Positions 19,235 through 39,153 of a stretch of 47,336 bases of DNA are shown in pieces. Each line of letters begins with the position of its first letter. Position 1 is the stretch's first letter. The position numbers were made by a program, and so were the translations under genes. Below the pieces are notes generated by a model. It saw only the letters and a program-made list of their open reading frames with translations, did not search any database and was not told the origin of the DNA. Location: contig JAAYVN010000050.1 of assembly GCA_012517155.1 (NCBI GenBank), forward strand, positions 1 through 47,336. Direction: 5' to 3'. Source of the DNA: Ignavibacteriales bacterium. Its GTDB lineage: Bacteria; Bacteroidota; Ignavibacteria; Ignavibacteriales; Ignavibacteriaceae.

Positions 19235-21100
19235 TTATTTTTTTCTTTTCTGTTGATGTTTTGCTTTTTCTTCGGCAGCCTCCATCATTTTCTGCATAAA
19301 TCCTTTTTTCTTTCCTCCATTTTTTACGGGTTGAAGTTCAACCGGCTTACCGTACTTATTCATGATATGCTGGTGAGTAATTGAGAACAAGTTGAAGAGG
19401 AAATAGTATAAATTAAGTCCAGACGGGAAACTCATAAAAAGGATTGTAAGCATAACCGGCATAATGTATACGAGCATTTGCTGCTGCGGATCCTTAACGG
19501 TCTGTTTCTGCTGGAGATATGTTGTAATACCCATAAGAAGTGCAAGACCGCTAATTTGCTCAACACCAAAGAGAGGGAGTTTGAAGCCAAGATTAAAAAT
19601 AACATCGGGTTTAGAAAGATCGTTTATCCACCATATAAATGGCTGCTGCCTAAGCTCAATAGCGGATTGAAAGAGACCCCAGAGAGCAATAAATATAGGC
19701 ATCTGAAGAAGAAGCGGAAGACAACCACCCGCGGGATTTATTCCGTAGGTTGAGTAGAGGCGCATAGTTTCTTTTTGGACTTTTGCCTGATCGTCCTTGA
19801 ATTTTTCTTTAATTTCAGTGATCTTGGGCTGCAAGGATTGCATCTTTTTCATTGACTGCATACTTTGTTTGGTAAGAGGCCACATCAATAATTTTATGAT
19901 GATCGAGAAGAGGATAATTACCAAACCAAAGTTAGAGATAAAGCTATGGAGGAAATTGAACAAAGGAAGCAGCAGATACTCGGCGATAGGGCGAACAATA
20001 AATTTAAGCCCGAAGAAACTTCCGAAGTCAACAATTGCATCAAGATTTTTTCCATAAGCATCCAGAATATCGTAATTAACCGGACCAAGGTAAACCATGT
20101 AATCATGTTTAATTATCGGCTGGTTTCCGACAGGGACTTTTAGGCGGATATCATAGTATTCCCTGATACCGCCTTTTGGGAAACTCTTGCTATATCCTTT
20201 AACGTAAACCCCCTCTGTTTGAGAAGGATCTTCCGGGACAATAATACCAGCGAAGTATTTATTTCTGACCGTGATCCAATCAACTCGTCCGGTTTTTTCC
20301 TCTTTAAGGAATTCACCATCTGAATGGGGAGCATCAAAAATAACCTGTTCATCTCCATAATAGGCGCTAGCATTTGAATAGTTTGCCTCATCGGCAGAAT
20401 TTTCCTCGACGAAATGAAGACCTCCAGTCCAGACGACATCATAAATGCTATTGCTTATGAGATTATTCATTTTATCGAGTTCCAATTGGAAACGAGAATC
20501 GTAGCGATCGCCGAAGAAAGTATAGTTTTTAATTATTGCATTGCTATCCTTTGTCAGGAAGGTAAAAGAAAGTTTAAGAGAGTCCTTACCTGAAAGTCTG
20601 TACTGAGACTGCGGAGAGTTTGGTGTAAAAGCAAGGTTTGAAGTTGAGACAGCTTTACCTTCGTTTGAGATAAAAGCAATGTCAAAACTGCCACCAAGGC
20701 TGTAGTTAATAAGTTGTACATATTTGTCTATTTCAGGAGAGCCAGCGGGAAGCTTGGAATGATACCAGTTATTATATTTTTTTAGGAAGTATTTATCAAT
20801 TTTTGCACCGGCAGAATTAATGCGAATAATCGCAAGATCGGTTTCGATAGTTATATACTGATTAGCGGGTTTAAGGTTGGTATAAAAAATGCCCAGTGAA
20901 GCACTATCGGGAGTAGGAGTTTGAGTTACCGGGGGAAGCGATTCAGGAGCTTTTGGAGTTTCGACCTTAGGTTGAACGTGAGTAGTATCCTGAGTTTTTT
21001 TAGTATTTTTCGGAGGAGTTACTGTAGGAGTGGTGAGGTACAACCAGACGATTAAAATCAGGCCGATGAGTACAAAAGCTAAAGTTGTTTGTCTATCCAT
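19235..21100 (-). CDS. yidC: Membrane protein insertase YidC
   Basis: 621 residues, matching the long Gram-negative form. It opens with the first transmembrane span (TTLAFVLIGLILIVWLYL), then a proline-rich linker and the large periplasmic P1 beta domain (about 75-350). The conserved insertase core follows: FLHSFISNFGLVIILFSIII, LPLLLQMPIFIALWGLFQSA, the LMGITTYLQQKQTV region and FPSGLNLYYFLFNLFSI. The C-terminus is a lysine-rich tail (KKKGFMQKMMEAAEEKAKHQ) that probably touches ribosomes. AGGA sits six bases before the ATG. It lies 12 bases after yidD in the classical rpmH-rnpA-yidD-yidC order. Confidence 0.97.
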   Translation of the reverse strand: MDRQTTLAFVLIGLILIVWLYLTTPTVTPPKNTKKTQDTTHVQPKVETPKAPESLPPVTQTPTPDSASLGIFYTNLKPANQYITIETDLAIIRINSAGAKIDKYFLKKYNNWYHSKLPAGSPEIDKYVQLINYSLGGSFDIAFISNEGKAVSTSNLAFTPNSPQSQYRLSGKDSLKLSFTFLTKDSNAIIKNYTFFGDRYDSRFQLELDKMNNLISNSIYDVVWTGGLHFVEENSADEANYSNASAYYGDEQVIFDAPHSDGEFLKEEKTGRVDWITVRNKYFAGIIVPEDPSQTEGVYVKGYSKSFPKGGIREYYDIRLKVPVGNQPIIKHDYMVYLGPVNYDILDAYGKNLDAIVDFGSFFGLKFIVRPIAEYLLLPLFNFLHSFISNFGLVIILFSIIIKLLMWPLTKQSMQSMKKMQSLQPKITEIKEKFKDDQAKVQKETMRLYSTYGINPAGGCLPLLLQMPIFIALWGLFQSAIELRQQPFIWWINDLSKPDVIFNLGFKLPLFGVEQISGLALLMGITTYLQQKQTVKDPQQQMLVYIMPVMLTILFMSFPSGLNLYYFLFNLFSITHQHIMNKYGKPVELQPVKNGGKKKGFMQKMMEAAEEKAKHQQKRKK

Positions 21101-21112
21101 AAATATCCTAAA

Positions 21113-21322
21113 TTATTTGAGGGGGTCGAGCCCGCCTTTGTTAAATGGGTTGCATCTAAGAATGCGCCAGATTGCTTTCAAACTACCTTTGAAGACGCCG
21201 TATTTGGACAGCGCCTGTACTGCGTACTCGCTACAGGTCGGGTAGAACCTGCAGGATGGGGGAAACAAGGGGGAAATAAATTTCTGATAAACCCTGATAA
21301 GCCAAATAAAAAGATTTCTCAT
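21113..21322 (-). CDS. yidD: Membrane protein insertion efficiency factor YidD
   Basis: 69 residues from the ATG at 21322. The family core is complete: [34 protein letters not shown] and [12 protein letters not shown]. It helps YidC insert membrane proteins and has an amphipathic N-terminal helix. A longer frame from TTG at 21388 would add 22 poorly conserved residues; YidD proteins normally begin a few residues before the IRxYQ motif, so the ATG is preferred. It lies between rnpA and yidC as in most bacteria. A second, secreted YidD-like protein is encoded at 35199. Confidence 0.93.
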
Positions 21323-21404
21323 TAGAATTTCTTGGCAAATGAAACAAAAACAGAGTCGAAATAGATACTTACAAGCCTGTTTCCACAAAAAACAAGTAGA
21401 GTTT

Positions 21405-21815
21405 TCAAATTAAAAGAACTTTTTCTTTAATTTTCATTAAAAGTTCGAGTACACCCGGGAGAACCTGATCCAGCGATACTTTTTTATTTTTTTTTTGGTT
21501 AAGCTGAAAAGGGATAAAAACGAGTTTAAGGACCGCCCCAGCAGAGGTCATATCAGAGAGAAGAATGAACTTATTAGTTCTATAAGCCTCCCGAATTAAC
21601 CTTTTTATCCGATTTCGCCAAACAGCACTGCCCGATTTTTTCGGAACAGTGACGGCAAATTTTAATTCCGGTTTAATCCCCTCCTGCTTAACGATTTTGT
21701 AGAGGAGCAGTATTTTTTTATCTGAAGAAACAAACGATTTATTATCAGAAAAGATCTCTTCAATATCTTTTTTACTTTTTAACCGCTCACTTTTAGAAAG
21801 TGTATTTTGTTTCAA
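21405..21815 (-). CDS. rnpA: Ribonuclease P protein component
   Basis: 136 residues. It assists the RNase P RNA in trimming the 5' ends of tRNAs. The start [17 protein letters not shown] and the signature [16 protein letters not shown] are diagnostic; [11 protein letters not shown] precedes the RNR motif. The start appears to be TTG (21813-21815) with no strong ribosome site. It follows rpmH by 45 bases, the nearly universal order. The tail (residues 100-136) is longer than in E. coli. Confidence 0.94.
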
Positions 21816-34052: not shown

Positions 34053-35195
34053 ATGAATTTTCAGTTTACCGAAGAACAAGAGATGATACGACAAACAGCC
34101 AAGGATTTCGCCGAAGCAGAAATAGCCCCATCAGCTACAGAAAGGGATATTAATGGTGAATTTCCGGTTGAAATAGTTAAAAAACTTGGGGAATTAGGGT
34201 TTATGGGAATGATGGTTTCACCTGAGTACGGCGGTGCAGGAATGGACACATTAAGTTATGTGCTTGCCATGATTGAAATTTCTAAAGTTGATGCGAGTGT
34301 TGGAGTTATAATGTCGGTAAACAACTCATTAGTGACGTGGGGATTAGAACAATTCGGCTCAGATCATTTAAAGGATAAGTATCTAGTTCCATTAGCACAG
34401 GGATTAAAACTTGGAGCTTTTGCTTTATCAGAACCAGAAGCAGGGAGCGATGCAACTAATCAGAATACTATGGCAGAAAAAGAGGGGGATTATTACATAG
34501 TTAACGGTATAAAAAACTGGATAACAAACGGGAAAATGGCTGACTATTACATTGTAATGGCACAAACAGACAAAGTTAAAAGACACAAAGGAATTTCGGC
34601 ATTATTGGTAGAAAAAGGGACAGAGGGATTTGAGCAAGCAAAAAAAGAGGATAAATTAGGAATCAGGAGTTCCGACACATGTTCATTAACATTTAACAAC
34701 TGTAAGGTACCAGCAGAGAACTTAATCTGGGAAGAAGGAAAGGGATTTAATTTTGCAATGAAAACCCTGAATGGAGGAAGAATCGGAATTGCGGCACAAG
34801 CATTAGGAATTGCAGAGGCATCATTAGAAGCTGCAATTAAATATGCCAAAACAAGGAAAGCTTTTGGAACGGAGATTGCAAATCACCAGGCGATTCAATT
34901 TAAGTTAGCAGATATGGCGATGGAACTTGAGTCAGCTAAACTACTTACATTCAGGGCAGCGAGTTTGAAAGATAATCATCTTGATTACACAAAAGAGTCT
35001 GCCATGGCAAAATTAGCAGCATCCAAAGCAGCGGTGCACTGTGCGCTTGAAGCAATACAGATACACGGTGGATATGGATATGTAAGGGAATATCTGGTTG
35101 AGAGATACTTAAGAGATGCAAAAATAACTGAGATTTATGAGGGAACATCAGAAATTCAAAGATTAGTAATTGCCCGTTCCTTATTGGTTCAATAA
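34053..35195 (+). CDS. Acyl-CoA dehydrogenase (short-chain type)
   Basis: 380 residues, the standard length. This FAD enzyme oxidises acyl-CoA to enoyl-CoA. Signatures are FALSEPEAGSDATNQNT (FAD-binding), IKNWITNGKMADYYIVMAQT, the substrate loop KLGIRSSDTCSLTFNNCKVP and IHGGYGYVREYLVERYLRDA. The catalytic base is Glu363 in YEGTSEIQR, at the position used by short-chain (butyryl-type) enzymes. AAGGAG lies six bases before the ATG. No electron-transfer flavoprotein genes are in the window. Confidence 0.94.
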   Translation: MNFQFTEEQEMIRQTAKDFAEAEIAPSATERDINGEFPVEIVKKLGELGFMGMMVSPEYGGAGMDTLSYVLAMIEISKVDASVGVIMSVNNSLVTWGLEQFGSDHLKDKYLVPLAQGLKLGAFALSEPEAGSDATNQNTMAEKEGDYYIVNGIKNWITNGKMADYYIVMAQTDKVKRHKGISALLVEKGTEGFEQAKKEDKLGIRSSDTCSLTFNNCKVPAENLIWEEGKGFNFAMKTLNGGRIGIAAQALGIAEASLEAAIKYAKTRKAFGTEIANHQAIQFKLADMAMELESAKLLTFRAASLKDNHLDYTKESAMAKLAASKAAVHCALEAIQIHGGYGYVREYLVERYLRDAKITEIYEGTSEIQRLVIARSLLVQ

Positions 35196-35198
35196 GAA

Positions 35199-35609
35199 AT
35201 GAGAATCATTCTACTAATTGTTTTAATTCAGACAATTGCACACCCGCAGGTTGACTGGGAAAGGTGGGGGAAAAAGGAAATTGACTACAGAAAAGAAAGT
35301 TTTTCAAAATCAAGGGATTACAGTTTTGACGGATTAGGTGTAACAGAAACAATTCTGAAAGGAGCTTTAATAAGTTATTGGACTTTTTTTTCGGATATAG
35401 ACGGAGATAACTGTCCATTTGAGCCAAGTTGTTCGGCATTTTTTATCGATGCAGTTAAAACAACAAATTTAATTGAAGGAGCACTTCTTTTTTTTGACAG
35501 ATTTGCACGAGATACCAACCCATTCAACCGGCGGAAGTATTATAGAATTGTTAAATCAGGAAGGTTTTATGATCCGATTGGAAATTATGTCAAAATTGGC
35601 AGGGATTAG
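35199..35609 (+). CDS. Secreted YidD-like protein (second YidD paralogue)
   Basis: 136 residues. A short signal peptide (MRIILLIVLIQTIAHPQ) and an unrecognised 55-residue segment precede a YidD-like core: ENCPFEPSCSAF-type motif (read as DNCPFEPSCSAFFIDAV) matches [15 protein letters not shown] of the true YidD at 21113, and RDTNPFNRRKYYRI plus SGRFYDPIG matches the [10 protein letters not shown] end. The classical YidD is cytoplasmic-face; this one carries an export signal. It begins three bases after the dehydrogenase stop and is followed seven bases later by two TPR/membrane genes. Confidence 0.75.
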   Translation: MRIILLIVLIQTIAHPQVDWERWGKKEIDYRKESFSKSRDYSFDGLGVTETILKGALISYWTFFSDIDGDNCPFEPSCSAFFIDAVKTTNLIEGALLFFDRFARDTNPFNRRKYYRIVKSGRFYDPIGNYVKIGRD

Positions 35610-35615
35610 AGAGAA

Positions 35616-36503
35616 TTGTCAAGTAGAATTTATTTTATAATCTGCATTTTTATTTCGCTGTTTCAACAAATAACCGCTCAATCATATGAGTTATTAAGCC
35701 CTGCAAACATCCGAAAATTTGCCGATCATTTATACAAACAAGAGGACTACTTAAGGAGCATTGAGGAATACAAGAAACTTGAGAATTATTTAAGCAGTGA
35801 TACACTATTAGTTCGCATATCTTTTGCAGAGATAAAAATGGGGCATTATAATGAAGCGGATAAAATAATATCTATCATGTCCAAGAGTTTGCGTTATACG
35901 GGAATCACAGATTTTTTGAGTCTTAGAAATAATTTTTTAAGAATTAATCATACTAAGCAATCTTACAATAATGAATATAAGTGGGACAGAACCAGTGTTA
36001 ATATGAATTTGTGGAGTCCGGATGTGCAGGAGTCCTTTAACAGACTGGACTTTTTCCGAGAATTAGCGAATTTCCCAAGGAAAGATTTACTCGAAAGAAT
36101 AAATATTTTCACTCCAGAAGAAAGAGACACAATAAACACCCTATTGATAATGAACCTAGACCCCCCTTTAAAGAGTCCGTTAATTGCCGGGGGGTTATCC
36201 TCAATAATTCCAGGACTTGGGAAGGTTTATGCGGACAGACCAGAGGAAGGAATAATAAGTCTGATATTAACAGCTACGTGTGTCTACATATCTTACACGA
36301 ACTTTGAAGCAAAGCATCTTTTCAGGGGCTGGTTTTTTGGCGGATTATCAGCCATGTTCTATGTAAGTAATATTTATGGCACGGTTAAAGCAACAGAACA
36401 ATACAACCTAGGGGTAAAAATCGGCATAAATAATATTGTGGAGACTTTTCTTCAAGCAAGAGACTATTACTCCCCCACTTCTCTTTTAGAAATGGTAAGG
36501 TAG
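35616..36503 (+). CDS. TPR-like protein with C-terminal membrane region (IPGLGKVY type)
   Basis: 295 residues from TTG 35616. The signal peptide ends near ITAQ (about residue 22). Residues 30-160 are helical and TPR-like (KFADHLYKQEDYLRSIEEYK, YNEADKIISIM). From about 195 a hydrophobic module begins: AGGLSSIIPGLGKVYADRPE, EGIISLILTATCVYISY and GWFFGGLSAMFYVSNIYG, similar to the DUF5683-type 'IPGxGQxY' membrane domain of Bacteroidota. The function is unknown. It lies seven bases after the YidD-like gene and three before a paralogue of the same design. Confidence 0.72.
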   Translation: MSSRIYFIICIFISLFQQITAQSYELLSPANIRKFADHLYKQEDYLRSIEEYKKLENYLSSDTLLVRISFAEIKMGHYNEADKIISIMSKSLRYTGITDFLSLRNNFLRINHTKQSYNNEYKWDRTSVNMNLWSPDVQESFNRLDFFRELANFPRKDLLERINIFTPEERDTINTLLIMNLDPPLKSPLIAGGLSSIIPGLGKVYADRPEEGIISLILTATCVYISYTNFEAKHLFRGWFFGGLSAMFYVSNIYGTVKATEQYNLGVKIGINNIVETFLQARDYYSPTSLLEMVR

Positions 36504-36506
36504 TTT

Positions 36507-37343
36507 ATGCAATTATTCTTTTGTTTATGTGTAATTTATTCAGCCACGATATTTGCCAAGGAAAGATTACCCGACTCCATACTAACCGAACAATACATTT
36601 ATTGCAAGCAACTCCATGCAGAAGAAAAATATTTTGATGCAGTTACAGAGGCACAAAGATTAATATTTTTTGACTCCCTTAAGGAATACAGTTTCGGAGC
36701 CAACAGTTTAATAGCTGACTGCTACAAACAAGGAGGTAAATTCCGGGAAGCATTGATTTTCCTGGGAATTGCCTCGAAATACGTGAGTAACGAGGAAGAA
36801 AAGATTACTAACAAGATCGAATCAATAAGAATTCACATACTAAACAGATCAACAAGTATTGCACTTCGACAGGCTGAGGAATTAAAATTAGCGTACACAG
36901 AGAGGGAAGCTGAATCACACTACTGGAAAGGATGGATATATATGTTTGCCGACAGGTGGGGAGATGCAGCGAATATGTTTGCATTAATTGACACTTGTGA
37001 ATACCTTAAAAAATTCTGCGAAGATATTGATAATAAAAAATATTCCGTTACATTTGCTAAAGCAATTTCATATTTTTTACCCGGTTCCGGGCAGGTTTAT
37101 TCGGGTGAATATATAAACGGAATCCTATCTTTAGGCTGGAACATCGCTTCGGGATATTTAAGTGTCGAGGCATTCAAAGAGGAAAGGGTATTTGATGGGG
37201 CTGCAATACTGTCATTACTATGGCTGAGGTTCTATTCGGGAAACATAAGTAACGCAGAAAAATTTGCAAAGGAAAAGAATTCAGAGTTATATAATTCAGC
37301 ATTAAACTATTTACAATTAAACTACAAAGGACTTAAACCGTGA
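36507..37343 (+). CDS. TPR-like protein with C-terminal membrane region (paralogue)
   Basis: 278 residues. A signal peptide (LFFCLCVIYSATIFA) is followed by TPR-like helices (YCKQLHAEEKYFDAVTEAQR, ADCYKQGGKFREALIFLGIA, WKGWIYMFADRWGDAANMFA). Near residue 188 the same hydrophobic module appears as in the preceding gene: AKAISYFLPGSGQVYSGEYI, NGILSLGWNIASGYLS. The two proteins are equal in layout but diverged in sequence. Its stop overlaps the GTG of the ACT gene (GTGA). The function is unknown; co-transcription with the YidD-like gene suggests a shared envelope role. Confidence 0.72.
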   Translation: MQLFFCLCVIYSATIFAKERLPDSILTEQYIYCKQLHAEEKYFDAVTEAQRLIFFDSLKEYSFGANSLIADCYKQGGKFREALIFLGIASKYVSNEEEKITNKIESIRIHILNRSTSIALRQAEELKLAYTEREAESHYWKGWIYMFADRWGDAANMFALIDTCEYLKKFCEDIDNKKYSVTFAKAISYFLPGSGQVYSGEYINGILSLGWNIASGYLSVEAFKEERVFDGAAILSLLWLRFYSGNISNAEKFAKEKNSELYNSALNYLQLNYKGLKP

Positions 37344-37765
37344 CATTAACTGAGGAGAAAATCAGAGAGCTTACACTTAAAGCAATTCATGATTTGGGAG
37401 CTAAAGCAACTCCGACATTGGTAAAGGAATATATTGAAAGAGAGTTAGCAAACGCGGATAACGGGATAAGGAGTAATAATTCCACCGGAACAAGCAACAG
37501 AGTAATACTAACATCATTTGGAGTTAATAACACCGGGATCGTCAGTGCGATTACAAAAATTTTAAGTGATACCGGATGTGATCTGTTAGATATTTCCCAA
37601 AAGATAATGCAGGAATTCTATACACTGATAATGATTGTAGATATATCCAATATGACAAAAGACCTCAAGGAATTGCAGGATCTAATGAACACAATAGCAA
37701 CTCAGCTAAAAATAAAGATATATCTGCAGCATGAGGATGTATTCAGATTTATGCATAGAATTTGA
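37340..37765 (+). CDS. ACT domain protein (UPF0237 type)
   Basis: 141 residues from GTG 37340. The first 50 residues are a helical extension ending in a Ser/Asn/Thr-rich linker. The ACT fold follows: RVILTSFGVNNTGIVSAITK, LSDTGCDLLDISQKIMQEFY, TLIMIVDISNMTKDLKEL. ACT domains bind amino acids and regulate partner proteins. The UPF0237 kind is found almost always next to UPF0210, as here (26 bases downstream). Standard UPF0237 proteins are about 90 residues, so the N-terminal part is extra. Confidence 0.87.
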   Translation: MTLTEEKIRELTLKAIHDLGAKATPTLVKEYIERELANADNGIRSNNSTGTSNRVILTSFGVNNTGIVSAITKILSDTGCDLLDISQKIMQEFYTLIMIVDISNMTKDLKELQDLMNTIATQLKIKIYLQHEDVFRFMHRI

Positions 37766-37791
37766 TATTCAGTAATTAAGTTTAGAAGAAA

Positions 37792-39153
37792 ATGCCATAC
37801 GAATTCGAAGAAATACTCGAAACAATCAAAATGACTGAAATAGAGCATTTTGATATAAGGACAGTGACCTTAGGGATAAGTTTAAGAGACTGTTCGGACA
37901 GAAATATTGCCGTAACAACACAAAAGATATATGAGAAGATAACAAGATATGGTCAGGCACATGTATCACTTGCGCAAGAAGTAGAGAGAAAATATGGAAT
38001 ATCGATTGCCAACAAGAGGGTATCGGTAACACCTATTGCCATTGCGGGAGATGCTTTTGGAATTGATGAATTCGTAAAAATTGCCGAAACATTAGATAAA
38101 GCTGCCGGAGAAATAGGTATTGATTATTTAGCGGGTTATTCTGCATTAGTACAAAAGGGATTCACTAACGGAGATTTGAATTTAATTAAGTCAATTCCCT
38201 CAGCCTTATCATTAACAAAGAAGGTTTGTTCAAGTGTAAACATAGCATCGACAAAAGCCGGAATAAATATGGATGCGATTAATATGATGGCGGATGTAAT
38301 TAAGGAAACAGCATATCTGACACGCGAGAAAGACTCCATAGGCTGTGCAAAGCTTGTAGTTTTTTGTAATGCAGTAGAAGACAATCCTTTTGTTGCAGGG
38401 GCATTTCACGGAGTGACTGAACCGGAAGTGGTATTGAATGTAGGAATAAGCGGGCCCGGTGTCGTACTGAAAGCGATAAAATCTGCAGGAATGGTTGATT
38501 TTCAATCATTAGCCGAAGTTATAAAGAAAACCATTTTTAAGATAACAAGAGCCGGAGAATTAATAGGCCGAAAAGTGGCAGAAAAGCATGGTATTCCTTT
38601 TGGCATAGTTGATATATCACTGGCACCAACTCCAGCTGAGGGGGACAGCATAGCAGATATTTTAATAGCCATGGGAATTGAAGACGTAGGAGCTCCGGGG
38701 ACAACTGCAGCGCTTGCCATGTTAAATGATTGCGTGAAAAAAGCCGGATTAATGGCAAGTACTTCGGTTGGTGGAATGAGCGGGGCTTTTATCCCCGTAA
38801 GTGAGGACCAAGGAATGATAAGGGCAGCACAAAAAGGAAACTTATCATTAGAAAAGCTAGAAGCAATGACTTCGGTATGTTCGGTTGGACTGGACATGGT
38901 TGCGGTGCCTGGGGATACTCCAACAGATACATTAGCCGGAATAATAGCAGATGAAGCGGCAATAGGAGTAATAAACGACAAAACAACAGCAGTAAGAATA
39001 ATCCCTGCTTATGGGAAAGGAGTGGGAGATTTTGTTGATTACGGAGGTCTACTCGGGAAAGCTCCAATAATGACCGTAAGGCGTCTTTCATCGACAGATT
39101 TCGTTAAAAGAGGGGGAAGAATCCCAGCACCAATGAGAAGTTTGACAAATTAA
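37792..39153 (+). CDS. UPF0210 (DUF711) family protein
   Basis: 453 residues, the normal length. The family is recognised by [20 protein letters not shown] at the start, [27 protein letters not shown] and [20 protein letters not shown], with [19 protein letters not shown] later. Distant relatives share the glycyl-radical/PFL-like barrel fold, but no glycyl loop is visible and the biochemical role is not known. It is paired with the upstream ACT protein, an association conserved from Firmicutes to Archaea. Confidence 0.9.

Follow-up and report, generated by a model that had tools for sequence, protein, structure and literature searches.

The stretch of DNA analysed here, referred to as the window, is the whole 47,336-nucleotide contig JAAYVN010000050.1 of an Ignavibacteriales bacterium (assembly GCA_012517155.1; a genome of 3.29 Mb that is 99.65% complete), and our subject is a trio of genes on its forward strand, which we call A, B and C. 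Gene A (35199–35609; 136 amino acids, aa) encodes a YidD-like protein with a predicted export signal, while gene B (35616–36503; 295 aa, TTG start) and gene C (36507–37343; 278 aa) encode predicted exported proteins in which tetratricopeptide repeat (TPR) helices are followed by a hydrophobic module, of the form PGxGK(I/V)Y in B and PGxGQxY in C. An initial annotation, made from the sequence alone, had described three tightly spaced genes with gaps of 7 and 3 bases; the three open reading frames and the second gap were confirmed, whereas the first gap measures 6 bases. We propose, with a probability of roughly 40%, that A and B, with C where it occurs, make up an envelope module that is built around an exported YidD paralogue and has a role in envelope biogenesis.

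Gene A passes both curated YidD models, with 36.7 bits against Pfam YidD (PF01809; cut-off 27) and 47.1 bits against TIGR00278 (cut-off 40), and all 81 aligned A relatives match TIGR00278 at an E-value of up to 0.01, a statement that concerns the E-value and not the cut-off for each relative. The YidD core (residues 53–111; 35355–35531), as outlined by the Pfam match region, the conserved columns and the comparison with canonical YidD, has Y60, ISDxDGDxCPFxPSCSxF and DRFxRD as its landmarks, and 15 columns are invariant across 30 diverse A copies. Y60, the IS pair, the CxFxPSCS motif (C72, F74, P76, C78 and S79), R101/R104 and a DP pair are common to A and canonical YidD. A differs from canonical YidD in that a DGD triplet precedes its first cysteine and that it has a signal peptide with a glutamine at the cleavage site, no yidC neighbour and a tree group of its own; within the order, moreover, its third cysteine is replaced by D105 (RC to RD). 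Beyond residue 25, two cysteines are found in 78 of the 81 relatives and three, the number of the canonical core, in the other 3; the RC cysteine is retained in those relatives outside the order that belong to the type I and fused arrangements described below. In a structural model of A (pLDDT 78.4, pTM 0.56), a signal helix (residues 2–14) and a loose stretch precede three main core helices. The search for A in the PDB returned nothing YidD-like by sequence profile and two meaningless matches by fold (E 2.6 and 7.8). A second, canonical yidD lies on the reverse strand at 21113–21388, between rnpA (21405–21815) and yidC (19235–21100), in a cluster spanning 19235–21815 in which rnpA and yidC were named by eye and by gene order. 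This copy falls in the canonical tree group, and A is thus an additional YidD copy, in agreement with the initial annotation.

Ordinary YidD is not known to be exported or to carry a cleavable signal peptide. For A, a signal peptide is predicted at residues 1–16 (35199–35246) from the hydrophobic N-terminus, the helix at residues 2–14 of the model and the glutamine Q17 at position +1, and in general we called a protein exported when an N-terminal hydrophobic stretch was followed by a glutamine after the expected cleavage site. This glutamine is present in 81 of 81 A sequences (Q17), 74 of 74 B sequences (Q22) and 62 of 73 C sequences; the C of the window has a lysine (within residues 16–19). 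The +1 glutamine of A, B and most C copies fits the Q-rule of Bacteroidetes, by which signal peptidase I substrates have a glutamine after the cleavage site; the rule does not extend to every member of the wider group, but Ignavibacterium album has a Q-value of 77% (both according to PMC5837995). The export of A and B, like their pairing, is well supported, and the earlier description of A as a YidD-core protein with an export signal stands.

Genes B and C share one layout, namely a signal peptide, TPR helices and then the PGxGxxY hydrophobic module, as had been described before, and the two motifs quoted at that time, SIIPGLGKVYADRP and YFLPGSGQVYSGEY, are present in the window pair. An hhalign comparison of the two profiles shows homology over 245 columns (99.7%, E 5.7e-27), by which B and C are paralogues. 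The alignments hold B sequences of 255–330 aa (73 of the 78 named loci with B) and C sequences of 255–310 aa (72 of 76). In the AlphaFold model of B (mean pLDDT 92.3, pTM 0.80), a signal helix leads into helical repeats that extend to residue 181 and are followed by a short helix, a PGLGK turn and two long helices. The TPR-like region (residues 29–181; 35700–36158) is also indicated by matches of the B-family profile to TPR structures in the PDB (best E 5.6e-10) and by a Foldseek search in which TPR chains come out on top, if weakly (best E 0.14, all above 0.1). Seven residues, all in the hydrophobic module (residues 188–281; 36177–36458), are invariant in 74 of 74 B sequences (P199, G200, G202, K203, Y205, Y254 and G255), and P192, G193, Y198 and G200, which fall within the PGSGQVYSG motif of C (residues 192–200; 37080–37106), are invariant in 26 of 26 C sequences.

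The B and C of the window reach no curated family cut-off in Pfam or NCBIfam. The DUF5683 and TM2 modules (PF18935 and PF05154) likewise have a PG.G..Y turn before a helix pair, and at E-values of up to 1 the former is matched by 56 and the latter by 37 of 74 B relatives, all below the cut-off (best DUF5683 E 1.8e-4). The C of one locus outside the order (L117) reaches 23.7 bits against DUF5683, under the curated cut-off of 26.7, and the window B and C have no DUF5683 match at E up to 1. In contrast to these modules, B and C carry a TPR domain ahead of the turn and have an exported YidD as partner. An exported TPR scaffold is also what B and C have in common with the periplasmic TPR assembly factors of the BamD, PilW, YbgF and PorW types, to which 2–3 of 16 wide B/C relatives have NCBIfam matches. 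B differs from these factors by its C-terminal, putatively membrane-bound hairpin and by its YidD partner, and both A and B have a glutamine and no lipoprotein cysteine at the aligned cleavage position in all aligned copies.

The hairpin of B is mildly hydrophobic, its median best 19-residue Kyte-Doolittle values being 1.35 and 1.02, compared with peaks of 1.35–2.40 for the YidC of the window. Such a hairpin could pass the Sec channel, which would suit a different explanation, namely that B and C are helical hairpin proteins of the outer membrane and that A, as a membrane-active "haemolytic-domain" protein, helps to insert them or opens a pore. We consider this quite unlikely, as the hairpin loop of B has more basic than acidic residues (mean 1.84 K+R vs 1.27 D+E), which is slightly better for an inner-membrane hairpin, and no outer-membrane sorting feature was found, although no dedicated test for one was run.

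The conservation of the trio within the order was followed in two sets of loci. The first comprises 56 A loci (L031–L086) from 55 genomes of the family and order besides that of the window, one of which (G036) gave two. The second was drawn from named genomes with the pattern S[DE]xDG[DE][NR]C[PA]F, which gave 109 matching stretches, 96 of them encoding relatives, and consists of the best 80. In the second set, 60 titles contain Ignavibacteria, Ignavibacteriales, Ignavibacterium, Melioribacter(aceae), Stygiobacter or a similar name and the remaining 20 a broader label (Bacteroidetes, Bacteroidota, Chlorobiota, Chlorobiaceae, or a BMS3Abin or BRH_c32 bin), and it is on the titles of this set that the placement of the relatives of the first set in the Ignavibacteriales rests. 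Gene A is present in 56 of 59 genomes of the family and order (all except G015, G019 and G026). At 51 of the 56 loci A is followed by B and C in the same orientation, one of these loci (L064) having roughly 320 bases that separate A from B; two of the remaining loci end at a contig end in or after B (L054, L084) and three have no B and C nearby (L063, L083, L086), although two of the three genomes concerned, G012 and G023, encode B elsewhere. In the second set, A, B and C stand in order within the set spacing limits at 72 of 80 loci, with median gaps of -4 and -4 bases. Of the remaining eight, four have the complete trio but more widely or irregularly spaced (L166, L167, L184, L202), three are incomplete owing to a contig end or a broken B frame (L170, L219, L221) and one has no B and C nearby (L232). 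A wide B/C profile gave two or more matches, the number that B plus C should yield, in 86 of 91 genomes of the order and none in G015, G019, G026, G682 and G691.

In the window, the trio is flanked on the same strand by an acyl-CoA dehydrogenase gene directly upstream of A (34053–35195) and by an ACT-domain gene directly downstream of C (37340–37765), which overlaps C by 4 bases; we do not think that either is part of the module. Among the loci of the second set with enough flanking sequence, the former is found directly upstream in 58 of 70, the latter directly downstream in 44 of 72, and both in 30 of 62. One could therefore suppose that the genes are passively syntenic with their acyl-CoA dehydrogenase and ACT neighbours and have no joint function. 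What speaks against this is the situation outside the order, even though two genomes have A and B on separate contigs (G012 with A on one and B and C on another, G023 with A and B on different ones).

There, a profile of A alone is of limited use. Among 296 genomes of the phylum it gave strong matches in the order, and weaker ones in G160, G180 and G156, all its other matches being weak. Those of the weak matches that were read are mostly ordinary YidD, but at least one (G260:C47) is an exported copy, so that the A profile by itself misses divergent members. Two long YidD frames (G179, G310) were considered as fusions and rejected, since they proved to be ordinary YidD within artefactually long frames. 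The B profile, applied to 391 genomes of the class at E up to 1e-13, matched 19 genomes outside the order, of which 16 were read, all except G340, G402 (a weak match) and G362 (6% contamination); in 15 of the 16 A adjoins B or is fused to it, and one (G367, L158) shows neither A nor B. Applied to 395 genomes of the phylum, leaving out matches at E 1e-9 to 1e-12, it gave three strong matches outside the class, all with A adjoining B (L254, L255, L256). In total, 19 genomes outside the order with a clear B match were read, and in 18 of them A adjoins or is fused to B (L117, L118, L119, L122, L154–L157, L254, L255, L256 and L258–L264). Together with a second copy from a genome of the order (L267 in G601), these 18 loci form the 19-locus set referred to below.

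The loci fall into several arrangements. In type I, a LolA-like gene is followed by A, B and C (L117, L118, L154, L255, L260, L263 with C cut off, and L267); in type II, a gene for a PEGA-domain lipoprotein is followed by A and B without C (L157, L254, L259, L261, L262), and two further loci counted with this type have A and B without a PEGA match (L122, L256); and in five loci A and B are fused in a single frame of 398–443 aa (L119, L155, L156, L258, L264), three of which come after a PEGA gene. The arrangement of the window, with the acyl-CoA dehydrogenase gene, A, B, C and the ACT gene, is type III. The core is A and B, C being missing from the PEGA-type and fused loci read. In the 19-locus set the ACT gene is found nowhere (0 of 19) and acyl-CoA dehydrogenase once, on the other strand (1 of 19; L254). 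Because the neighbours differ between the types while A and B stay together, passive synteny does not explain the A-B pair; this explanation is already largely refuted, and we give it a very small probability. The idea that the three genes belong together as neighbours, which stems from the initial annotation, has held up in both sets of the order, and the A-B pair persists outside it, in part as fusions.

At two of the fused loci (L155, L264), the fused A::B gene is preceded by genes for a lipoprotein-like protein some 230 aa long and a membrane-type protein, neither with a good Pfam match. At L086 (G036:C590, 5427–6243), an exported YidD of the PEGA-type group comes after CsgG-like and lipoprotein-like genes, as judged by eye, and is followed by an exported-looking protein without a Pfam match that is ended by the contig end; the same genome carries a window-type copy elsewhere (L084). 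Weaker B matches in G335, G356 and G359 are PGxGxxY proteins without A nearby, and in two genomes of another family (L159, L160) the gene for a PGxGxxY-type protein, roughly 300 aa in length, adjoins that of a 1031-aa protein, which is perhaps a separate conserved pair.

A tree of the YidD core splits completely into 38 exported and 23 canonical rows (22 distinct, one G260 gene standing twice as L120 and L281), with FastTree local support of 0.983 on 90 columns and 0.989 on 76 columns. The trees of A and B each sort by gene arrangement, with a minimum of 4 and 3 label changes compared with means of 32.4 and 17.2 after shuffling; for these trees the A and B parts of the fused proteins were separated at boundaries that we estimated, and the arrangement labels were assigned by us, with L256 and L086 (the latter without a seen B) counted as type II without the PEGA gene. 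In the B tree L255 is placed next to the fused loci, outside type I, and the grouping of the five fused loci suggests that one or two fusion events probably took place.

The homology of A to YidD makes it conceivable that A binds to YidC at its periplasmic part and helps it from that side, with B and C as membrane anchors. Three papers, all of which cite Yu et al. 2011, present ordinary YidD as an assistant of YidC (PMC3573977), list it as a putative factor for insertion within the SecYEG network (PMC8082313) and name its gene as part of an rpmH-rnpA-yidD-yidC-trmE cluster (PMC10502375). We nevertheless regard a YidC helper as unlikely. No yidC relative is present in the 155 A loci searched (56, 80 and 19), two YidD matches are found in 25 of 27 genomes of the order, and the second ones that were read (G000, G009, G037) are canonical. 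Moreover, of the three genomes without A, two (G019, G026) still have one YidD match each, if a weak one, and YidC thus seems able to do without A.

Further hints as to function come from the partner genes in the 19-locus set. The profiles for the LolA-like and the PEGA protein were each trained on four members of this set, and a smaller LolA-like profile (A8) finds three further members in the local loci. The LolA-like profile matches at 7 of 19 loci, each time directly upstream of A, and the PEGA profile at 9, eight times directly upstream and once (L117) on the other strand. Pfam identifies the PEGA domain in one locus (L119; 36.2 bits vs 20.8), the others matching the local profile. In the PDB, the LolA-like profile finds LolA (2w7q) first (E 2.9e-4), 4 of its 6 matches up to E 10 being LolA or a putative lipoprotein-sorting protein, and it aligns with seven true LolA proteins of the order (hhalign 84%, E 7.6e-6). 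Judging by its profile, the upstream gene of type I, present at seven loci, may be related to the LolA carrier, but it remains under the Pfam cut-off. A separate housekeeping LolA above the cut-off is encoded in 39 of 41 genomes of the order, and several LolA and LolB variants have recently been reported for Bacteroidota (PMC11885536, PMC13103446). LolA-like, PEGA and yidC matches are absent from the 56 and 80 loci of the window's type.

Two observations concern the type I loci themselves. Genome G601 has a window-type trio (L268, G601:C79) as well as the second, LolA-type copy (L267, G601:C54), beside a gene for undecaprenyl diphosphate synthase (PF01255). At L117, L118, L154, L263 and L267, the LolA-like gene is preceded by that of a small protein of 130–140 aa, which contains hydrophobic stretches but lacks a convincing match in Pfam.

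Since both proteins appear to be made with cleavable signal peptides, are co-inherited and are sometimes fused, A and B very probably form one complex. From our perspective, B (and C), in which a TPR scaffold lies beside a C-terminal helical hairpin with the PGxGxxY turn, should anchor this complex to a membrane, most simply at the periplasmic face of the inner membrane. The exported YidD core might sit on B at the membrane surface and hold or guide hydrophobic or lipid-bearing envelope proteins, in the way that YidD is thought to do for YidC substrates, while the TPR domains could recruit the clients. At loci that also encode a LolA-like carrier, this protein would ferry the lipid-bearing client through the periplasm. 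The module of the window's type includes no carrier, and its client might either depart with the housekeeping LolA or remain in the inner membrane. On a broader scale, one could speculate about a new envelope-biogenesis machine of Bacteroidota and their relatives, i.e., a periplasm-facing complex of exported YidD and TPR-PGxGxxY proteins from which, in certain lineages, a LolA-like carrier of its own takes over the lipid-bearing clients, a proposal that we put forward as a tentative possibility. As to the separate envelope-assembly module that the initial annotation had considered possible, the "envelope" part has support from the export signals and the LolA-like and PEGA-lipoprotein neighbours, while "assembly" is still a conjecture.

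Several points weigh against the envelope module that we favour. The complex of A and B and the function of the module are inferred from sequence, the model of A is of medium confidence, and the mild hydrophobicity of the B hairpin makes its placement in the membrane uncertain. The separate contigs of A and B in G012 and G023 mean that strict linkage of the two is not required, and the 18 of 19 genomes outside the order are not a blind sample, since they were picked by their B or A matches. With regard to the carrier, one of the seven LolA-like proteins reaches 13.6 bits against Pfam LolA (PF03548; cut-off 23.6) and the other six are unmatched at E up to 1. The LolA-like partner was found in 0 of 14 genomes of the window's family, a weak negative, as this set held no known positive genome. 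As the window-type loci lack LolA-like and PEGA genes, a role in lipoprotein trafficking is also not simply transferable to the organism of the window.

A small exported protein with a membrane-protein neighbour could also be a secreted toxin or lytic protein, with B and C as immunity or delivery proteins, and YidD-type proteins have been called haemolysins (PMC3573977). Yet A is found in 56 of 59 genomes of the order, keeps its 15 invariant columns in 30 copies, occurs fused to B and has a partly conserved chromosomal position, and no plasmid copy of the fused A::B protein was found, all of which makes a toxin highly improbable. A plasmid home for the fused protein was rejected after a tblastn search with it returned a single annotated yidD, covering 16% of the query. 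Type IX secretion, which was likewise considered, is not an obvious link, because SprA occurs in 14 of 14 genomes, the three without A among them.

YidD is widespread in bacteria and its role is only partly understood. That these environmental bacteria have an exported YidD group with a TPR membrane protein as its partner, the two being fused in some cases, suggests a role for the YidD fold on the outer side of the inner membrane as well and, if the envelope module is real, this would be a second, outward-facing use of the fold. Among the titles and abstract openings listed in searches of openly licensed PubMed Central papers, none describes an exported YidD or an A-B(-C) module. The module provides named partners for studying exported YidD, and its association with LolA-like and PEGA-lipoprotein genes is relevant to lipoprotein transport in Bacteroidota. 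As A passes the TIGR00278 cut-off, a database would label it an ordinary "membrane protein insertion efficiency factor YidD", a name that would likely misrepresent its function. Lastly, downstream of the trio (window 37340–39153), the ACT gene is followed by a gene that resembles DUF711/UPF0210.

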